Origin: Plicaturopsis crispa FD-325 SS-3
Taxonomy: Eukaryota > Basidiomycota > Agaricomycetes > Amylocorticiales > Amylocorticiaceae
NCBI GenBank assembly: GCA_000827205.1
Contig: KN832555.1
Coordinates: 2,240,179-2,304,178 of the forward strand
DNA: 64,000 nucleotides
Direction of reading: 5' to 3'
Below the pieces are notes generated by a model. It searched no databases and was not told where the DNA came from. It was given only the letters and a program-made list of their open reading frames with translations. The position numbers were made by a program, and so were the translations under genes. This document shows positions 30,756 through 51,409 of this stretch, piece after piece; the first letter of the stretch is position 1, and each line of letters begins with the position of its first letter.

Positions 30756-32012
30756 ATGGCCGACAACTCTTCTCACCGGTTGGACCTGCGTGTCGGCGGC
30801 AAATACAGGCTTGGAAAGAAAATAGGATCTGGCTCGTTTGGTGGGTGCTCGCCATCGATTATTTTCTTGCTTTGTGAGCTGACGGTGAGGGGCGCTAGGT
30901 GACATTTACCTTGGTATCAACATCATCTCCGGCGAGGAGGTCGCCATCAAGCTCGAGTCTGTCAAGGCCAAGCATCCTCAGCTCGAGTACGAGTCGAAAG
31001 TCTACAAGACCCTCGCTGGCGGTGTCGGCGTGCCCTTCGTCAGATGGTTCGGCACCGAGTGCGACTACAATGCCATGGTGATGGACCTCCTCGGTCCCTC
31101 ACTCGAGGACTTGTTCAACTTCTGCAATCGCAAGTTCAGTCTCAAGACCGTTCTCCTTCTCGCCGACCAACTTGTGAGTGCTGTTGCGGTCGCCGGATGG
31201 GCTGTGCTGACGCTGACGCCACCCGCCCCAGATCTCCCGCATCGAGTACATCCACTCCCGCAACTTCATCCACCGGGACATCAAGCCTGACAACTTCGTC
31301 ATGGGCATCGGCAAGCGTGGAAACCAAGTCAACGTGATCGATTTCGGTCTCGCGAAGAAATTCCGCGACCCGAAGACGCACATGCACATCCCTTACAGGG
31401 AGAACAAGAACCTGACTGGTACCGCCCGCTACACGTCCATCAACACTCACTTGGGCGTCGAGCAAGCTCGCCGAGATGACTTGGAGTCTTTGTCCTATGT
31501 CCTGATGTACTTCCTGCGTGGCGCCCTCCCGTGGCAGGGCCTGAAGGCCGCCACCAAGAAGCAGAAGTACGACCGCATCATGGAGAAGAAGATGACGACG
31601 CCCACTGATCTCCTCTGCCGAGGGTTCCCTAACGAGTTCGGCATCTTCTTGAACTACACCCGTGCCCTTCGGTTCGACGACAAGCCCGATTACTCCTACC
31701 TTCGCAAGCTGTTCCGCGACCTCTTCGTGCGTGAAGGCTACCAGTATGATTACGTCTTCGACTGGAGCGTTCAGCGCGGCGCTGCAGACGACTCTAGCGC
31801 TGCACCTAAGCGCCGCCCGAAGGTCGCTCAAGAGGAAGAGGAGCACAGGGCCAGTGACAGAATGTAAGCAATGCTCGATCTTTTACCATTTCTCCGCTCA
31901 ACGAGTGCCTAACAGGCTTCGCTCTCATACTCGACAGGCGCAACAGACAGGAACCCCGGGGGCAGTAGGCCAGCAACGCGGAGGACGGGGGAGAGACGGC
32001 GACATGTGGTAG
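30756..32012 (+). CDS. Casein kinase I, copy A (hhp/CK1-delta type)
   Basis: Starts [20 protein letters not shown]. Four exons, with introns after GSGSFG (30842-30898), after LLADQL (31173-31232) and within the last Met codon at 31864-31916. The last exon encodes an Arg/Gly/Gln-rich tail ending GRDGDMW. Kinase motifs: VAIKLES (beta-3 Lys), [11 protein letters not shown] (catalytic loop), [10 protein letters not shown] (the DFG motif), and the CK1-specific [15 protein letters not shown] in place of the usual [16 protein letters not shown] is the CK1 nuclear-type basic segment. This family (fission yeast hhp1/2, animal CK1 delta/epsilon, yeast Hrr25) acts in DNA repair, meiosis, endocytosis and clock control. 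If the last intron is retained, the protein stops at ASDRM instead, so two C-termini are possible. A close paralogue lies at 50341-51409. Confidence 0.95.
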
Positions 32013-33250: not shown

Positions 33251-36200
33251 ATGGCTTTCGCATCCAAAAAGGAGGAGGAGAGCGGGCTCAGCTCCTACTA
33301 CAACAACAAGACCACGATCATACAAGAGGCCCGAGTCTTCAACGAATCTCCCATTAGTCCACGGAAATGCAGGGCGCTCCTCACGCGTATCGTCTACCTG
33401 CTCTATGTCGGCGAGACATTTGGCACGCAGGAGGCCACTAACCTCTTCTTTGGCACCACGAAATTGTTCCAGCACAAGGATGTGAGTCCCGCCGCCGCGT
33501 TTCGCTGGACCCGCGCTTACTTTGGGCAACGGATGTTAGAGCGCGTTGCGGCAGATGGTCTACTTGGCCATCAAAGAGCTGGCGACTACCTCGGAGGATG
33601 TTATCATGGTCACCAGCAGCATCATGAAGGATATGCAGCCCAATTCGGAAGTCATCTACAGGCCGAACGCGATCAGGGCACTCTGTCGTATAATAGATGT
33701 ATGTGGAATCCCGTTACACCGCAGGATTTACGATGCTGACACTCTGTGCTAGCCGTCCATGGCGCAGGGTGTCGAACGATTTTTCAAGGCGGCTATCGTG
33801 GACAAGAACCCCTCCATTTCCTCCGCCGCGCTCGTCTCGTCGTACCATCTGTTTCCCCACGCGAAGGATGTCGTCAAGCGCTGGGTTAACGAGGCACAGG
33901 AAGCCGTCAATGCCAAGGGTTCCTCGACTTTCTTTGGCGGTTCAAGCGGTGGCGGTTATCTCGGCTTCGGAGGAGGCTCCCCAAATCAGAACAGCGGATA
34001 CCAGGCTATTCCCTCGACCAGCTACATCACACAGTACCACGCGTTGGGGCTGTTGTACTTCATTCGCCAGCAGGATCGGATGGCCGTGACAAAGATGATT
34101 CAGCAGTTGGGCGGCGGAAAATCCGGAGCCGGGACTACACTAAAGAATCCAATGGCCCTTTGTATGCTCATTCGTTATGCGGCAAAAGTTATGGAGGATG
34201 ATCCAAAGTATGCAATTTCCTCCACTGATTTTGAGTAGCCCTGATCAGTTTTGCAGTGTTCAAAAACAGATGTACGACCTTCTGGAGGGCTGGCTACGGC
34301 ATAAGAGTGACATGGTCAACTTCGAGGCCGCGCGTGCAATTTGTGAAATGAAATACGTCCAGCCCGCACAACTCACCAAGTCGCTATCAGGTTAGTATAT
34401 GCTCCATGTTATGCATAAGCCGTACTAACATATCGTGGACTGTACACAGTCCTACAACTATTCCTGGCCTCACCGAAATCCACGCTCAAGTTTGCGGCAA
34501 CGCGAACCCTTGCTGCCTTGGCACTTGTACACCCTGCCAGTGTTGCGACCTGCAACGTCGACTTGGAGAACCTCATCTCGGACACGAACCGGAGCGTGGC
34601 GACGTATGCTATCACCACCTTGCTGAAGGTTAGTGTTCAGATATGACGACATTTTACCTACTAACGCAAGGGCATCAGACTGGTAACGAAGCCTCTGTTG
34701 ACCGTCTCATGAAGCAAATCACTGGCTTCATGACCGAAATCAGCGACGAGTTCAAGGTCATCATCGTCGAAGCCATCCGCTCTCTCTGCCTCAAGTTCCC
34801 CTCAAAGCATGTGGCCATGCTTGCGTTCCTTTCGGGCGTGCTTCGCGACGAAGGAGGATATGACTTCAAGCGCGCGGTTGTCGAGGCCATCTTCGATATG
34901 ATCAAGTTCATCCCCGAGAGCAAGGAACAGGCGCTCTCGCATCTCTGCGAGTTCATCGAAGACTGTGAATTCACGAAACTGTCAGTCCGCATTCTGCATC
35001 TACTTGGTATGGAGGGCCCCAAGTCGCCGCAGCCAGCCAAGTACATCCGCTTCATATACAATCGCGTCGTGCTGGAGAACGCAACCGTCCGCGCGGCTGC
35101 TGTTTCGAGCATGGCAAAATTCGGTGTTAATGGAGGAGACGCCCTTCGGAAGAGCGTCGGCGTACTCTTGAATCGGTACGTCGGTGCATTCTTGACTTCG
35201 TTATATGTGCTTAGGGCAAAAATGCTGTAGCTGCTTGGATGATGTGGATGATGAAGTTCGTGACCGTGCTGCCATGTATCTGCGAGTGCTCAGGGAGAAG
35301 GAGCTGGCCGATGTTTATATCAGAGAAGGTCGGTTTGCCTGTTCAAATACTCCCTTATACAATATTAATCGTGTTGCATATATGCAGAATCCATCTTCTC
35401 TCTGGCTGCTCTGGAGACAAAACTCGTCGCTTATGTCAACGACCCGGAGTCGTCGAAGCAAGCGTTCGATACGTCCTCGATACCCAAAATCAGTCGCAAG
35501 CAAGCCGCGCAAGATGCATCTCGTACGTTGATCTGGCCGACTTTACTGCCAGGGCTAATGCTGTATCGTTCTAGGGCCAAGCACACTGGACACCATCGGC
35601 GTGCCTGCCTCGAAGAAAGCTTCTGCAACACCTCCACCGCCGTCGGCTGCGGAGACTGCGTCTGCCTACGCACAGCAGCTCGCGGATGTTCCGGAACTGT
35701 CATCTTACGGTCCTGTGCTGAACAGCAGCCTCAAGCCGACGCAGCTCACCGAGACGGAAACGGAGTACCAAGTTACATGCGTCAAACACATATTTGCGGA
35801 GCACATTGTTTTCCAGGTCAGTGCGAGTACATGCGCTCACGCGTTGCCGCTAACGTGGGCCCTCCTTGTTTTTCCTAGTTCAACGTGTCCAATACGTTAC
35901 CCGATACTGTTCTCGAGCAAGTCTCAGTCATTTTGCAGCCACAAACCGAGTCCGGATTGTCCGAGGACTTCATTATCCCAATACCATCCCTCACTGCTGC
36001 AACCTCGCCAAGTATCGTCTACGTGTCCTTCACTCGTGAATCGCCAGAGGAATATGCGTTGGCATCGTTCCAGTGCATTCTCAAATTCGTGAGTAAGGAG
36101 CTGGACCCCTCCACGGGAGAGCCCGAAGAGGAAGGCTACGAGGACGAGTACCAACTCGAAGACGTTGAGCTCTCCGCTGGTGGCGATTACATCATACCCA

Positions 36201-36586
36201 GCTATACCACATTCGCCTCCGAATGGGATCGATTGCGGACGGGTGCAACTGCCACGGAGACATTCGCCCTATCTGCGATGGAGAGTCTGAAAGGTGCGGC
36301 TTATTTCCTGTGTTTGATATTCGGCTTGTTCAATTCATCCTCTCCAGCTGCGTGTGACTCAATTATCGAGGTTCTCAACATGGAGCCTTTGGGCGGATCG
36401 CAAACCCCTTCCTCGACCTCTGTACACACCCTGCAACTATCAGGTTTGGTCACTGGTGGCGGGGGCAAGGTGCTTGTGCGGAGTCGGATGACGTTTACCA
36501 AGGGGCAAGGCGTGACCCTCGAGCTCGGTGTTCGCGCAGAAAAGCAAGCGGCTTGTGCTCTTGTTCTTGCAGCTGTTGGGGGTTAG
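33251..36586 (+). CDS. SEC21: Coatomer subunit gamma (COPI)
   Basis: The ATG at 33251 gives [20 protein letters not shown]. About 920 residues, ten or so short introns. The N-terminal adaptin-like trunk contains [39 protein letters not shown] and [17 protein letters not shown]. The C-terminal appendage holds [20 protein letters not shown] (across an intron) and ends [18 protein letters not shown]. Gamma-COP is part of the COPI coat that returns vesicles from Golgi to ER; the appendage recruits ArfGAP. A Gly/Ser-rich insertion ([16 protein letters not shown]) interrupts the trunk around residue 210 and is probably a flexible loop. No damage seen. Confidence 0.95.
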
Positions 36587-36904
36587 ATTGGACTCATTGG
36601 ATATATATATATTGTTTACTCTCATGTTTGAACGCCCCCGGAGGATGTATTGAGCGAATCGTAAGGCCCGAAATGATAATGCGATCTGCCCCAACAGGAG
36701 CAGTGCGCGCGCTACCGGGAGTCGGTGGTCCCGGAAACGGTGGGATGCAGACCTTTATCTTTATTGTGAATTGCGGCCTTGTCGTCAAAATCGTAAGACG
36801 GCCGTTGGTTTTTTTACCTATGTAAATGATCTTGCTACACGAACCGCCTTAAAACCTTGCGTATACGACTTGTCTTGCCATCCGATTCCTGGTCGCCGCA
36901 CGAT
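36587..36904. other. Spacer SEC21 - pantothenate kinase
   Basis: 318 bases between two genes on the same strand, with an AT dinucleotide run at about 36600-36612. The right part must hold the next promoter. Confidence 0.5.
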
Positions 36905-38696
36905 ATGCTGCCCTCACCCAAAGTCATTCACGTCGACACGCGCGGTGCGGTTATACTGTCGGAAGAATCCCCCGAGGTCTGTCTTGTCTTGTCTCTGAAC
37001 CTTGAACGCCCAGCGCTCACAGGGTGCAGACTCGAGATAGTCGGGGAATCTATCTTCCAAACCATATCGAACCTGTTTCGCACATCGCAGTCGACGTGAG
37101 CACGGGAACCAGCTACATAGACCCACACCGCGAGAACTGACGAGTCTCCGAATCAGGTTGGAGGATCTCTTGCTAAGGTTGTCTATTTCACTCGGTCGCC
37201 TGACCCGCCAGCTTCTCCATCCATCGCCGCAACGAAAGCCAGCAGCACCTGCGGCGACTCGCGGACGCCCGGCTCCTCTCTCGACGACGACTCTCCCGGC
37301 GCTTCGCCGCTGCTTTCAACTGCCGGCACACAGTCGCGGCAGAATGGCGCACTTACGCCGCTCATCTTGGACACGCATGCGCAGAGCTTCGGCATAAACG
37401 GGGGTGGTGACGGGCTCGTGGGCTTCAAGGAGGGCCTCCTGCGCGACTCGATCCTACGGAGGACATCCCAACACTTCCCGGGCGGCTCGCTCAACTTCGA
37501 GCGGTTTGAGACCGACAACATCGACGAGTGCGTTGAGTTCATCCGGACGCTTATTGAGCGATCGGCGCATGTGAACGGTGTCACCATCGACGAGATGCGG
37601 AAGGGCGTGAAGATCATGGCGACGGGCGGCGGCGCGCACAAGTTTTACGAGCTGTTCAAGGACGCGCTCGGGGTCGAGGTGCAGAAAGAAGATGAGATGG
37701 AGTGCCTGATTGAGGGCCTCAAATTCATCGCGCTGATCCCAAATGAAGTCTATTACTTCTCGGACGAACTTATACAGAGCGTCGCGCACCCTTCGGGATC
37801 AAGCATCAAGGGCGATGGCTCTTTGGAGAGGCCGAGTCCTAACCCGCCCAATTACGCTGTCACTTTCGAAACCAACCCCGTGCCCCAACTACCATGTCTA
37901 CTGGTAAACATCGGATCGGGCGTTTCCATTATCAAGATCGACGAGGACGGCAAGTACGAGCGTGTCAGTGGGACAAGTTTAGGTGGTGGTACACTGTGGG
38001 GATTGCTGAGCTTATTAACACCAGCGACGACGTTTGACGGTGCGTACCAAGCAACATCACCTCCCTCGACTACTTGCTTAATATCTCGTGCACCAGAAAT
38101 GCTGGCTTTCTCGGAGAAGGGGAACAACGAGACCGTCGACATGTTAGTCGGCGACATATATGGACAGGACTATGGCCGCCTTGGCCTAAAGTCCACAACA
38201 ATCGCCAGCTCTTTTGGCAAAGTGTTCAAGAAAGGCGGCGAGAAGACAACATTCTCTCCCGAGGACATCAGCCGGAGTCTACTCTACGCAGTATCGAATA
38301 ACATCGGCCAGATTGCGTGCGTTTCGCCAAACATGCTACACCGCCATCCAGACTAACCCGTGCCACACAGGTACATGAACGCGGAGAAATATAATCTAGA
38401 CAAGATCTACTTTGGGGGGTACTTTATCCGAGGTAAGCAGATCGTCTGCGCAAAGACCTTTGGCCGATACTTATGGCGATCTTCAGGCCACGCGGCGACT
38501 ATCACGACACTGTCTTATGCCATCCGTTTCTGGAGCAAGGGAACCAAGCGGGCATTATTCCTTCGCCACGAAGGCTTCCTGTGAGTGATTTAACCCTCCG
38601 GAGTATTGTGTATCTGACTGAAGCGCGCGTAGGGGGTCTATCGGAGCATGGATAAAGAACATCGGCCCGCAGGAAGAGGCTGACGACAGGACATAG
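36905..38696 (+). CDS. Pantothenate kinase, eukaryotic type
   Basis: The ATG at 36905 gives MLPSPKVIHVDTRGAVIL. Intron 1 must end at the AG at 37025-37026 rather than the earlier CAG, because only that keeps frame: SPE then TRDSRGIYLPNHIEPVSH. A second intron separates AVD from VGGSLAKVVYF, the phosphate-binding loop. A Pro/Ser-rich insertion follows. Conserved blocks are GFKEGLLRDSI, MATGGGAHKFYELF, CLIEGLKFIA, VNIGSGVSIIKID, RVSGTSLGGGTLWGL and KIYFGGYFIRGHAATI (across an intron); the protein ends GPQEEADDRT. It phosphorylates pantothenate, the first and rate-limiting step to coenzyme A, and the family is normally inhibited by acyl-CoA. About 500 residues, intact. Confidence 0.94.
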
Positions 38697-39607: not shown

Positions 39608-41392
39608 ATGCACTCGTCCTTCTCCTCCTGGCCCCATTCTCCTGTAATGGCGCCCGTAAACATCGACGATTTGGCAAAGGCTCAGGCTGACAGGCAGAAG
39701 AAACCTCGCCATCGACACAGTCCTGCTCAATTGGCCGCTCTAAATGAGCTATACGACAAAACAGAGCATCCCTCGCTCGACCAACGCACTACTTTGGCTG
39801 AACGTCTTGGAATGTGCGCTAGTTCCTCTCTTTCGGAGTTTCACTCCGGACATGTGTTCATTTCCCTTTCACAGGGAGACAAAGACCGTCAACGCATGGT
39901 TTCAAAATAAAAGAGCCTCGTCCAAGAAACGCAATAGGGGCGGCGCACATAAGGACCTGCTAGCTATCTCCAGCACTCACGCATCGACTCCCTCTTCATC
40001 CACTTCCCATACCCCTCATTACACAGACATCGACGACTACCCTGAAGACGAGTACCCACCCCCTAGCCGATATCCTCGCCGATCTACCTCCCTCGCCGCA
40101 ACAGCTGCTGACGCCCAAGAGCAGACCTTCTACGCCGGTAACAACGACAACAAGCACCACTTTGCCGCTCAAAGCGAAGCCATGACTCGCAAAATTCGCA
40201 TGCGTCCATCTGCTGAGCAGACCGACGAGCTCCGCAAACTATACAACAAAAACCCGCACCCCACAAGAGAAGAACGTGAAGAACTCGGGGAACGCATTGG
40301 GATGTAAGTTATCCCGTACGGTGTTCAAAGGTCATCAACTAAACGTCATCGCTTTTCCTCGTAGGCGCTATCAGAGCATAACGAACTGGTTTCAGAATCA
40401 ACGTAGTCTGGCTAAAAAGCGGAAGGAAGATGAGGAGGCCGCCGAGCATGAGCCGCCGACGTTTTCAGCTTTGCCCCCAGCCGCAGTACATCCCTCACTG
40501 TTGCCGCCGCCTTCTTCGCATCCCTCCTTGTCGTTGCCTGTGTCTCATAGAAAGCGCTCGCCAAGTATATCAGCACCTCCTGCATTATTGATCCACACCC
40601 CGTCGTCTCGGAGATCAACGCCTCGCCGCAGCACAACGCCTTACAGCACTACTACATCGCTTTCGCGGCCTAGGCGCACACGGCCGGAACCCTATCAACT
40701 CGATGCACTCAAAGGACTTCTCTCCCACACATCGAATCCTTCAATCGAGGAGCGCACAGCCCTGGCGCTTGAAACCGGAATGTGAGCAATATCTCTCATT
40801 CGATAATGTCATCTATGAGCACTGACTATGTGCGGCCTCTAGGGACCTGGGAAAAGTTACCAATTGGTTCCGAAACCTTCGTCAGACCGCTCGGAAGCGA
40901 GCTAAGAAGGGCGACTACGCCGACGAGGACAGCGTCAGTGGACACGGACACAATGACTCTGCCTCGGCTTCGCGCTTCGGAACCCCTTCCTTCCATTCGT
41001 CTGCGTCTTCTTCAGCAAACGACGCTGAAGAAAGAATGGACCTGGACGAGGATGACTACGCCCTCAACGAAGGCGGACACTCAGATATCGGCAGCGAAGA
41101 CGAATACCAGGAGGCTGTCACGCCGAGTCCCGAACCGTCCCCGCCTCCATCCAGCTTCTCCGTCTCATCCATAAAACACCATTCGCATCATTCCAGCACG
41201 CGCGGCGCAAGCGTCCGTGTGCTAGGCATGCTTGTTGACTCGTCGGGACTGCATCCACGTGCGGAGGTCTCCCCCCTAGGCGCAACTCACGACGAAGCCG
41301 ATTTGCTCCTCCACTTCAAAGAACACGTTGTACATCAGCTTAGTAACTGTGCGTCCTCTTGTCCTTCGTCCACCTTATACAAGTCTGATTAG
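39608..41392 (+). CDS. Homeodomain protein with three homeodomains
   Basis: About 540 residues, four exons. The ATG at 39608 gives MHSSFSSWPHSP; a second in-frame ATG at 39647 (MAPVNIDD) is possible. Homeodomain 1 starts at KPRHRHSPAQLAAL and ends TVNAWFQNKRASSKKR. Homeodomain 2 starts at KIRMRPSAEQTDEL and ends SITNWFQNQRSLAKKRK. Homeodomain 3 starts at RRTRPEPYQLDAL and ends KVTNWFRNLRQTARKR. All three keep the recognition-helix WFxNxR signature. Each is interrupted by an intron at the same place, splitting the Met codon of a Gly-Met pair before the third helix in phase 2 (about 39813-39874, 40304-40364, 40783-40842). The linkers are Ser/Pro/Thr-rich and the C-terminal region is acidic, like an activation domain. 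A further GT-AG pair at 41349-41405 would join T to AA and create a stop at the junction; unspliced, the protein runs to 41392. Presumably a nuclear transcription factor; target genes unknown. Confidence 0.88.
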
Positions 41393-42112
41393 ACATGCGT
41401 TTCAGAATCGTGGGCACAAACACGTCGTCCACCATCGTGCGGCCATCGCGCCCATCGATGAGCTGCTACATATAAATGTTGTCTTGACACTGTCTTCTTG
41501 TGTGGCTCTGGTCTCCCTACTTATTTCCTTTTGCATTTTCGCCCGCGACTGCCTCCTTGCTACACTGCACGTTACCGATTTACTCCCGCCGCTAATACTC
41601 ATGGCACCCTTCTCACTAACACTTCTTTCGTCTGCTATTTTATTATGACCATGCATAGTTCGGCTCGTTTGGCATCTATATTGGTTGCATATATCTTAAC
41701 CCCTCCTCGTCTGTTCTCGCCTATTCTGTGACTCTCATGTAGCCTTCCGTATTCGATATTCAATATGTCTGATCTTTGCAATCTCGGTCATGTACTCAAG
41801 CTGATAGGGTGTGGTGCAGTGCCGACAAAGATCGTAACGTTTAAATTTGCGCCTACCACAAGATGGAAAGTCCAGGTACGGTCGTACCTGGTACAGACCG
41901 TTTTGAAGTCTTCGTATGATCCGGGCATCTAACTTTCAATTATCATATCGGCAAGGAGAGTGCACATATGCGTAGTAAGCTAACTGATGTATACACCGAG
42001 TCACGAGAACGTGGCACAACGAGTCAGCATGAGGATCGCGACAGGCTTATAATGAACAGAGGGTATAGAGGGCTCTTATTTCAATTCACTATAGGCCTCC
42101 CCTTTGACTAAA
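41393..42112. other. Spacer homeodomain gene - PhzF-like gene
   Basis: 720 bases with no gene seen. It should hold the homeodomain 3' UTR and the PhzF-like promoter. Confidence 0.55.
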
Positions 42113-43060
42113 ATGCCTCCAACAGCCGTGCCTTTCGCCATGGTCAACGCCTTTACCGAGGACTGGCGTGGCGGTAACCCCGCCGCCATCGTGTTCCTGT
42201 CGCAGGCGCAGGAGCTTGACGATGCAGCGCTGCAGGCGATCGCGCGGAACATGCACCAGACCATGACCACGTTCGTCTGGCTCCCTCCACCCTCGACCGC
42301 GTCCTCGGAGCAAAATTCGGCCACGTTTGCGGTCCGGTGGTTCACAGTCGAGAAGGAGGTACCCATCTGTGGGCACGGCTCGCTCGCCGCGGCCGCGGCC
42401 TTGTTCGCAGACCCGCAGCTAGTCGGAGAGCATGTCACTGCCATACACTTCGCAGCCGCAAGCCTCGAGAAGCCACTGAGCGTCCGGAAGGCAGGGACCT
42501 GGCTGGAGCTAACGTTGCCGTTGGTGAGCATCGAGGAGGTGACCGGGCTCGAGAGAGAAAAGATCCAAGGCGCTGTCGCAGATGCCTTTGGACGGGATGT
42601 GGCGATCAGCTACGCAGCAAAGGGCGGCAAGGGATTCGAAACATACCTCATGATTGAGCTGGACCCGAAGGAGGACCTTGAGGGCTCGGAAATAAATACA
42701 AATGCATGGGTAAGATTGTCCCTCGTTTATGGCATAGGCCGCTAACGTTGAGAGCGGTTACAGACGCAGACTGCACCCAGTACCACAAACATCTTGACCA
42801 CAGCATCGCCTGACACCGCGCACGCGTTCGTGTCTCGGATGTTCGCACCGCTCACGGGGATTCCGGAAGACCATGTATGCGGCTCTGCCCACAGCTTGCT
42901 AGGACCGTACTGGGCGCGAAAGCTAGGCTTAGGGGAGCAGGAGATGAGTGCGCAACAGGTTAGCAAACGGGGCGGACATCTCAAAGTTGTCTGTGATGCG
43001 GGCAAAGTCTTGTTGAAGGGACAATCGGTAGTCACCGCGAGGGGGGAGATTTTCGTGTGA
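42113..43060 (+). CDS. PhzF-family (phenazine biosynthesis-like) protein
   Basis: The ATG at 42113 gives MPPTAVPFAMVNAFTEDWRG; the frame extends back only to a TTG. One intron at about 42711-42762 joins NTNAW to TQTAPSTTNILTTASP. About 298 residues, normal for the family. Motifs are GGNPAAIVFL, FTVEKEVPICGHGSLAAAAA and DHVCGSAHSLLGPYWARKLG. The family adopts a two-lobed diaminopimelate-epimerase fold and includes isomerases, such as PhzF in phenazine synthesis, and many proteins of unknown role such as yeast Yhi9. At the position of the PhzF general acid-base Glu (pattern SETAFV) this protein reads TMTTFV, with Met. It may therefore have another reaction or be non-catalytic. No phenazine genes are nearby. 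Bacterial origin is possible, but the intron shows long residence. Confidence 0.85.
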
Positions 43061-50340: not shown

Positions 50341-51409
50341 TCACTCCTGTTCCTCCTTCGGGTGGTGCTTAGGTGCAGCGCCAGAGTCGTCTACGGCGCC
50401 ACGCCGAATACTCCAGTCGAAGACGTAGTCATATTGGTATCCTTCGCGCACAAAGAGGTCGCGGAACAGCTTTCGCAGGTACGAGTAGTCCGGTTTGTCG
50501 TCGAAGTGAAGGGCGCGGGCATAGTTAAGGAAGATGGCGAATTCGTTGGGGAAGCCATGGCAGAGGAGACTAATCGGCGTTGTCATCTTCTTATCCATGA
50601 TGCGGTCGTACTTCTGCTTCTTGGTGGTGGCCTTTAAACCTTGCCACGGGAGGGCGCCGCGAAGGAAGTACATCAGCACGTAGGCGAGAGACTCCACGTC
50701 GTCGCGACGGGATTGCTCGACGCCCAAGTGGGTGTTTATGGACGTGTAGCGGGCGGTGCCAGTCAAGTTCTTGTTCTCCCTGTAAGGGATGTGCATATGC
50801 GTCTTCGAGTCACGGTATTTCTTCGCGAGACCGAAATCGATCACGTTGACCTGGTTTCCTCGCTTGCCGATGCCCATGAGGAAGTTGTCTGGCTTGATGT
50901 CGCGGTGGATGAAGTTGCGGGAGTGGATGTACTCGAGACGGGAGATCTGGAGCGATTGGTCAGTGTTGCTACACATAATTTCTATCTACTGACACACTCA
51001 CGAGTTGATCGGCGAGCAGGAGGACGGTTTTCAAGCTGAAACTCCGATTACAGAAATTAAACAGGTCCTCAAGAGAGGGCCCGAGAAGATCCATGACCAT
51101 GGCGCTGTAGTCACATTCTGTGCCGAACCATCTGACGAAGGGCACACCAACGCCGCCAGAAAGAGTCTTGTAGACTCTCGATTCGTACTCGAGCTGGGGG
51201 TGCTTAGCCTTCAGAGACTCGAGCTTTATGGCGACCTCCTCGCCAGAGATGATGTTTATGCCGAGGTAGATGTCGCCTGCCCTCCGCACCGTCAGCGCAC
51301 ATAACGGTGAAGTGATCGATAACAAGTACTCACCGAAAGAGCCGGATCCTATCTTCTTTCCGAGCCTGTATTTGCCGCCGACACGGAGGTCCAACCGGTT
51401 GTCGGCCAT
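50341..51409 (-). CDS. Casein kinase I, copy B
   Basis: Minus strand from the ATG at 51409 ([17 protein letters not shown]). Introns fall after GSGSFG and after LLADQL, the same two positions as in copy A. All kinase motifs are intact: [28 protein letters not shown] and [15 protein letters not shown]. By eye it differs from copy A by about two dozen substitutions in the 300-residue kinase region and lacks three residues after MADN. It also lacks copy A's fourth exon: the protein ends at KHHPKEEQE after about 310 residues, so the Arg/Gly/Gln-rich tail, which in CK1 relatives steers localisation and autoinhibition, is missing. Likely a paralogue with altered regulation. It is divergent from the chitin synthase gene across 1.6 kb. 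Confidence 0.94.

Follow-up and report, generated by a model that had tools for sequence, protein, structure and literature searches.

A fungal gene predicted to encode three homeodomains in one protein, each split by a phase-2 intron at codon 40

Here, we report a gene on the forward strand (39608 to 41392) that very probably encodes one protein with three homeodomains, as judged from its reading frames and splice sites. Positions are those of the window, by which we mean the whole stretch of DNA that was analyzed (64,000 nucleotides; C2:2240179-2304178). In the reading that we prefer and hold to be fairly probable, the product is a transcription factor of a homeodomain subfamily, descended from an ancestor with one homeodomain, with two more gained internally, and reads composite DNA sites.

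Gene model and neighborhood

The predicted exon structure comprises four exons, all on the forward strand. Exon 1 (39608 to 39813, 206 nt) opens with an ATG at 39608, has another ATG in frame at residue 14, and carries the N-terminus and helices 1 and 2 of homeodomain 1 (HD1). The two internal exons are both symmetric (2-2); exon 2 (39875 to 40303, 429 nt) holds HD1 helix 3, an 85-amino-acid (aa) linker, and HD2 helices 1 and 2, and exon 3 (40365 to 40781, 417 nt) holds HD2 helix 3, an 81-aa Ser/Pro-rich linker, and HD3 helices 1 and 2. Exon 4 (40843 to 41392, 550 nt) supplies HD3 helix 3 and the C-terminal tail, up to the first in-frame stop. Intron 1 (39814 to 39874, GTGCGC...CACAG), intron 2 (40304 to 40364, GTAAGT...GTAG), and intron 3 (40782 to 40842, GTGAGC...CTAG) are each 61 nt long, GT-AG, and phase 2, and each cuts the Met-40 codon between AT and G directly after a Gly codon; a first-pass annotation of this DNA had likewise described phase-2 introns that split a Met codon after a Gly. 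Removal of the three introns leaves a frame of 533 aa. A possible fourth intron (about 41349 to 41405, GTGCGT...TTTCAG, 57 nt, GT-AG), read by eye, would shorten the product to 519 aa, ending in ...HQLSN; the C-terminus is uncertain.

Splicing at each of the three sites rebuilds a full homeodomain and was the top score in the splice scan. Retention of intron 2 or intron 3 brings a stop immediately after Met-40, and retention of intron 1 brings one at 39910, so unspliced messages would yield truncated proteins. Intron 3 has a candidate branch point matching CTRAY (CTGAC); a motif search found no CTRAY match in introns 1 and 2. Because both internal exons run open between consecutive homeodomains, a single protein is much more probable than three genes; in Markov-1 simulations, the frame stayed open in 29 of 2,000 cases for exon 2 and 41 of 2,000 for exon 3.

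The genome (33.2 Mb, 49 contigs) has nine class II-type peroxidase matches; of two loci retrieved, one has the versatile peroxidase VPL2 as its nearest PDB match. About 356 kb from the three-homeodomain gene, four homeodomain genes, two of them TALE and two non-TALE (L002, L003, L018, and L020), lie within about 9 kb at C2:2.637-2.647 Mb, in a cluster that looks like a MAT-A type mating locus. The nine peroxidase matches and this MAT-like cluster fit a white-rot type agaricomycete. Within the window, two similar protein-kinase open reading frames, casein-kinase-1-like by eye, lie about 19 kb apart on opposite strands (31217 to 31867, forward; 50341 to 50985, reverse). The neighbors at 34634 to 38356 and 42095 to 42745 match the coatomer gamma and adaptin families, Fumble (which we take to be pantothenate kinase), and PhzC-PhzF, and are usable as synteny anchors.

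The three homeodomains and the codon-40 intron

PF00046 matched the whole protein in three stretches (147.5 bits, E = 9.5e-44). As separate pieces, HD1 (39698 to 39932, residues 31 to 88, cut by intron 1), HD2 (40188 to 40422, residues 174 to 231, cut by intron 2), and HD3 (40666 to 40900, residues 313 to 370, cut by intron 3) scored 63.6, 57.9, and 45.1 bits, respectively (cut-off, 22.9). Six key homeodomain positions picked from textbook knowledge (R5, L16, W48, F49, N51, and R53) are retained in all three domains, and all six belong to the 16 columns, out of 58, that are invariant from HD1 to HD3 (hypergeometric p = 2e-4). With these matches, W48/F49/N51/R53 in 3/3, and open internal exons, the first-pass claim of three complete homeodomains in one reading chain stands, as does its claim that the copies diverged strongly (mutual identity, 41 to 43%).

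Residues 47/50/54 read A/Q/A in HD1, N/Q/S in HD2, and N/R/Q in HD3, so different core-site preferences are expected. Position 20 of HD3 is Leu, and residue 55 is S, L, and T in HD1, HD2, and HD3, respectively, where R or K is usual. Each piece spans PF00046 positions 1 to 57 over 57 residues, leaving no place for the three-residue TALE insertion, and all three align gap-free with non-TALE domains. Homeobox_KN (PF05920), a family matched by TALE domains, scored 64 bits on the whole protein and 32.8 on HD2 (above the cut-off of 24), with HD1 (22.9) and HD3 (22.5) below it; for every piece, its score was lower than that of PF00046. The HOCHOB family (homeobox-cysteine loop-homeobox, PF17943) reached 35.1 bits on the whole protein (cut-off, 26.3), with its best stretch (residues 190 to 235) inside HD2; HD2 alone (19.3 bits) and HD3 alone (14.6 bits) fell under the cut-off. 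The match covers positions 3 to 48 of 120, the homeodomain part alone, and we read it as general homeodomain similarity.

Searches of the whole genome gave 23 exon matches to PF00046 (E up to 1) and 3 matches to PF05920; top candidates were scored exon by exon, a procedure by which homeodomains with more introns may be missed. From splice scans, we obtained a comparison set of 14 non-TALE, non-MAT homeodomains in 12 genes. The codon-40 phase-2 intron is present in six of the 14, namely, HD1 to HD3 and the homeodomains at C2:341k (L043), C2:414k (L041), and C2:2582k (L042). Another seven (L044 to L049 and L051), all from non-TALE genes, have their phase-2 intron inside the codon for W48, and one has an intron at Arg-53; C3:2018k, a thirteenth gene outside the 14, has a phase-0 intron before W48. 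The W48-codon intron of the seven corresponds to site 48(2/3) of TALE genes, which, in the excerpted text of that source, is named with 44/45 as the most ancestral position in those genes (PMC6219170).

A scan with a profile derived from the same homeodomains on which it was run found three homeodomains in the window stretch (5.5 kb) and one apiece in 11 other stretches (9.5 kb). For C3:2018k, the MAT-type and TALE genes, and C6:1064k, the check for further homeodomains covered surroundings of about 1 kb. The codon-40 intron thus marks a homeodomain subfamily, with four loci found, all on contig C2 (4/4; chance, 1.4e-4), which makes up 10.9% of the assembly. The first-pass annotation had taken the shared intron site as an argument for duplication inside the gene; that argument falls, because the same site occurs in three loci of this genome in which one homeodomain was found and so is not by itself proof of such a duplication.

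Across the genome, about 18 homeodomain loci lie above the cut-off (13 non-TALE non-MAT, 4 MAT-like, and 1 further TALE), and 7 of the 13 non-TALE, non-MAT genes above the Pfam cut-off, namely, the window gene, L041 to L044, L046, and L047, are on contig C2 (binomial p = 1.7e-4). Homeobox genes in fungi are given as usually less than a dozen in the excerpted text of PMC4901127. The right-exon tail of C2:341k contains a short tandem repeat of VDASGKA.

We computed a tree of the 14 homeodomains from 58 columns, in which the branches of HD2 and HD3 are long; left out were C3:2018k (insertion, short C-part), the TALE genes, two non-TALE domains of MAT type that lack the N-part, and a subthreshold fragment at C6:1064k. 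The six codon-40 domains split from the other eight at 94/96, on a branch without the tool's star. This split was kept without HD2 (91/94), without HD3 (88/96), and without both (81/96), never starred, and its survival on removal of HD2 favors the subfamily reading. The three intron classes need two changes on the tree, the fewest possible. The first-pass annotation had named unrelated classes with different intron sites as the outcome that would speak against it; the tree and splice scans of this genome instead place HD1 to HD3 together in the six-domain group, with one and the same site.

Origin and function of the additional homeodomains

The preferred reading starts from an ancestor whose single homeodomain was N-terminal and whose acidic tail held EAVTP. 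Between these ends, two further homeodomains would have been gained when either a homeobox unit with its intron or a symmetric 2-2 exon was duplicated in tandem, in an order that we infer, and would then have diverged. What favors internal duplication is not the intron but the partial resemblance of the gene ends to those of single-homeodomain relatives, an argument short of proof; the two extra homeodomains lie between these relative-like ends. All three relatives (L041 to L043) share with the window gene the codon-40 phase-2 intron and a non-TALE homeodomain near the N-terminus, according to rough models (start picked by hand, right exon taken to the first stop, further introns unsought). 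L042 and L043 also share the acidic EAVTP tail motif. Unlike the window gene, each of the three was found with one homeodomain, and a [ST][LM][ED]W[AV]C motif, absent from the three-homeodomain gene, follows it in all three.

The acidic stretch of the window gene (41021 to 41125), a candidate activation region, ends in EAVTP (from 41111), and residues 406 to 445 include 14 D/E. [DE]AVTP occurs once in the whole 64-kb window (six frames), as EAVTP behind acidic residues, and among 12 sources (six frames) it is confined to the window gene, C2:2582k, and C2:341k, being absent from C2:414k. Aligned with the C2:341k tail, the tail scored 65 (shuffle mean, 36.7; sd, 6.2), a score reached by 0 of 1,000 shuffles. 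For the C2:2582k tail, 59 of 1,000 shuffles reached the score, and the aligned part is of low complexity and lacks EAVTP; the C2:414k tail gave no match (834 of 1,000). The shared acidic EAVTP tail suggests a subfamily gene that acquired two internal homeodomains, and these comparisons suggest internal duplication as the simplest history. Internal duplication, as the first-pass annotation proposed, thus stands on the gene ends and not on the intron. Forcing HD1 to HD3 into one clade cost 0.85 log units (AU p = 0.32); a single clade is neither rejected nor shown.

Linkers and introns carry no direct trace of duplication, since the linkers are not clearly alike and the introns are dissimilar. 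The alignment score of the two linkers was reached by 45 of 500 shuffles, and introns 1 to 3 showed no similarity to each other (within about 1.2 sd of shuffles). Alignment of the linkers with the tails of the three-homeodomain gene, L042, and L043 gave no clear similarity. Three RRST sites, all in the linkers, are possible kinase sites.

A more specific history has intron-to-intron duplication of a symmetric exon building the three-homeodomain reader, in which every new exon supplies the end of one homeodomain and the start of another, with long composite sites read through three diverged specificities, in parallel to animal DUX and ZFHX. We put this forward only tentatively and think it rather unlikely. 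The chimera pattern of exon duplication (HD2 N-part like HD3, C-part like HD1) was not seen in the few residues compared: the N-part of HD2 is identical to HD3 at 14 of 38 positions and to HD1 at 16 of 38, and its C-part to HD1 at 9 of 20 and to HD3 at 10 of 20.

We also consider improbable an origin with no duplication inside the gene, in which neighboring single-homeodomain subfamily genes fused or homeobox exons of paralogues (e.g., C2:2582k) recombined in. The location of all four subfamily loci on one contig would suit it, as would the identities of the outer domains: HD1 is most like C2:414k (52%), followed by C2:2582k (50%), and is 43% and 41% identical to HD2 and HD3, respectively (its 48% identity to C3:2266k, a gene of the other intron class, speaks against our preferred reading), and HD3 is closest to C2:2582k (47%). 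By tree path, HD2 or HD3, with the other one omitted, is also nearest to C2:2582k. However, HD2 has its highest identity with HD1 (43%), the full tree joins HD2 to HD3 (81/79, flagged for long branches; end branches, 1.86 and 2.8), and a single clade of the three is not rejected by the AU test. Fusion of complete genes should, moreover, leave tail motifs behind, and a motif search of the linkers found neither [DE]AVTP nor a SLEWAC-like motif; nor do the linkers resemble the tails with which they were aligned.

As to function, the product of internal duplication in our preferred reading would be an activating transcription factor for composite sites. Helix 3 of each homeodomain (W48, F49, N51, and R53) would enter the major groove and Arg5 the minor groove; by analogy with established homeodomain structure, HD1, HD2, and HD3 probably bind DNA with different preferences. 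Linked in one chain, the three domains would read composite sites of two or three parts, more tightly and more specifically than a single domain could, and activation would proceed through the acidic tail. The gene would thereby be expressed and its product act in the nucleus on such DNA sites, with the acidic stretch in a putative activating role.

It is also conceivable, if improbable, that HD1 alone (perhaps with one other domain) binds DNA and that HD2 and HD3 are drifting modules for protein interaction or nonspecific DNA contact, an arrangement that fits either origin. Drift would agree with the long end branches of HD2 (1.86) and HD3 (2.8, the longest of the three), with HD3 having Leu at position 20 and scoring lowest in Pfam (45.1 bits), and with S/L/T in place of the usual R or K at residue 55; it agrees poorly with six key positions intact in all three domains and with Pfam scores that are all well over the cut-off. 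That the locus holds three separate neighboring genes with one homeodomain each, or that the gene model is wrongly joined, can be set aside as highly improbable: the model comes from sequence alone, but the homeodomains are just 85 and 81 codons apart, with internal exons open in frame between them, and each splice rebuilds a full homeodomain with the best score in the splice scan.

Comparison with known systems

To our knowledge, descriptions of fungal homeodomain proteins usually give a single homeodomain. Hom1 and Hom2 of Schizophyllum commune probably have one each. Like the window protein, both are basidiomycete homeodomain regulators, a likeness by description only, from the excerpted text of PMC5428507. 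That excerpt gives Hom2 four predicted RRXS motifs, replacement of whose serines made the protein constitutively active; the parallel between these four sites and the three RRST linker sites of the window protein is a lead only (PMC5428507).

Searches against two collections not meant for fungi confirmed none of 24 pattern stretches for residues 1 to 88 (viral collection) and none of 37 stretches for the 183-aa HD1-into-HD2 stretch (prokaryote genomes), a result without bearing on conservation. In the literature, within titles and the starts of abstracts among the matches listed (subscription papers being mostly outside this scope), we found no fungal protein with three homeodomains. The phrases "three homeodomains" or "three homeobox domains" occurred, among the matches listed, in PMC12871285, PMC11490551, PMC1779571, PMC8476127, PMC5837393, and PMC3534046, which by title concern animals or a liverwort. 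Fungal three-homeodomain proteins may well be annotated already elsewhere.

In the PDB match list, the first natural proteins, behind a double engrailed chain, were of the mammalian DUX4 double-homeobox type, which has two homeodomains per chain compared with three in the window protein. DUX4 is of animal PRD-like origin, and we read these matches as general homeodomain similarity, with no sign of close kinship. A further parallel is with animal ZFHX2/3/4 and ZFH-2, which, as far as the excerpted texts go, have three homeodomains like the window protein (PMC12871285, PMC3534046), Zfhx2 being described with three in one protein (PMC3534046). These animal proteins also carry many zinc fingers, whereas the window protein had no match to zinc-finger families at E 0.1. 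The codon-40 intron offers a simple marker by which other agaricomycetes may be searched for the subfamily, and the paralogues that share it form a natural comparison set for the rise of extra domains. If the three-homeodomain member proves conserved, it would show that regulators with several homeodomains were built in fungi as well as in animals.
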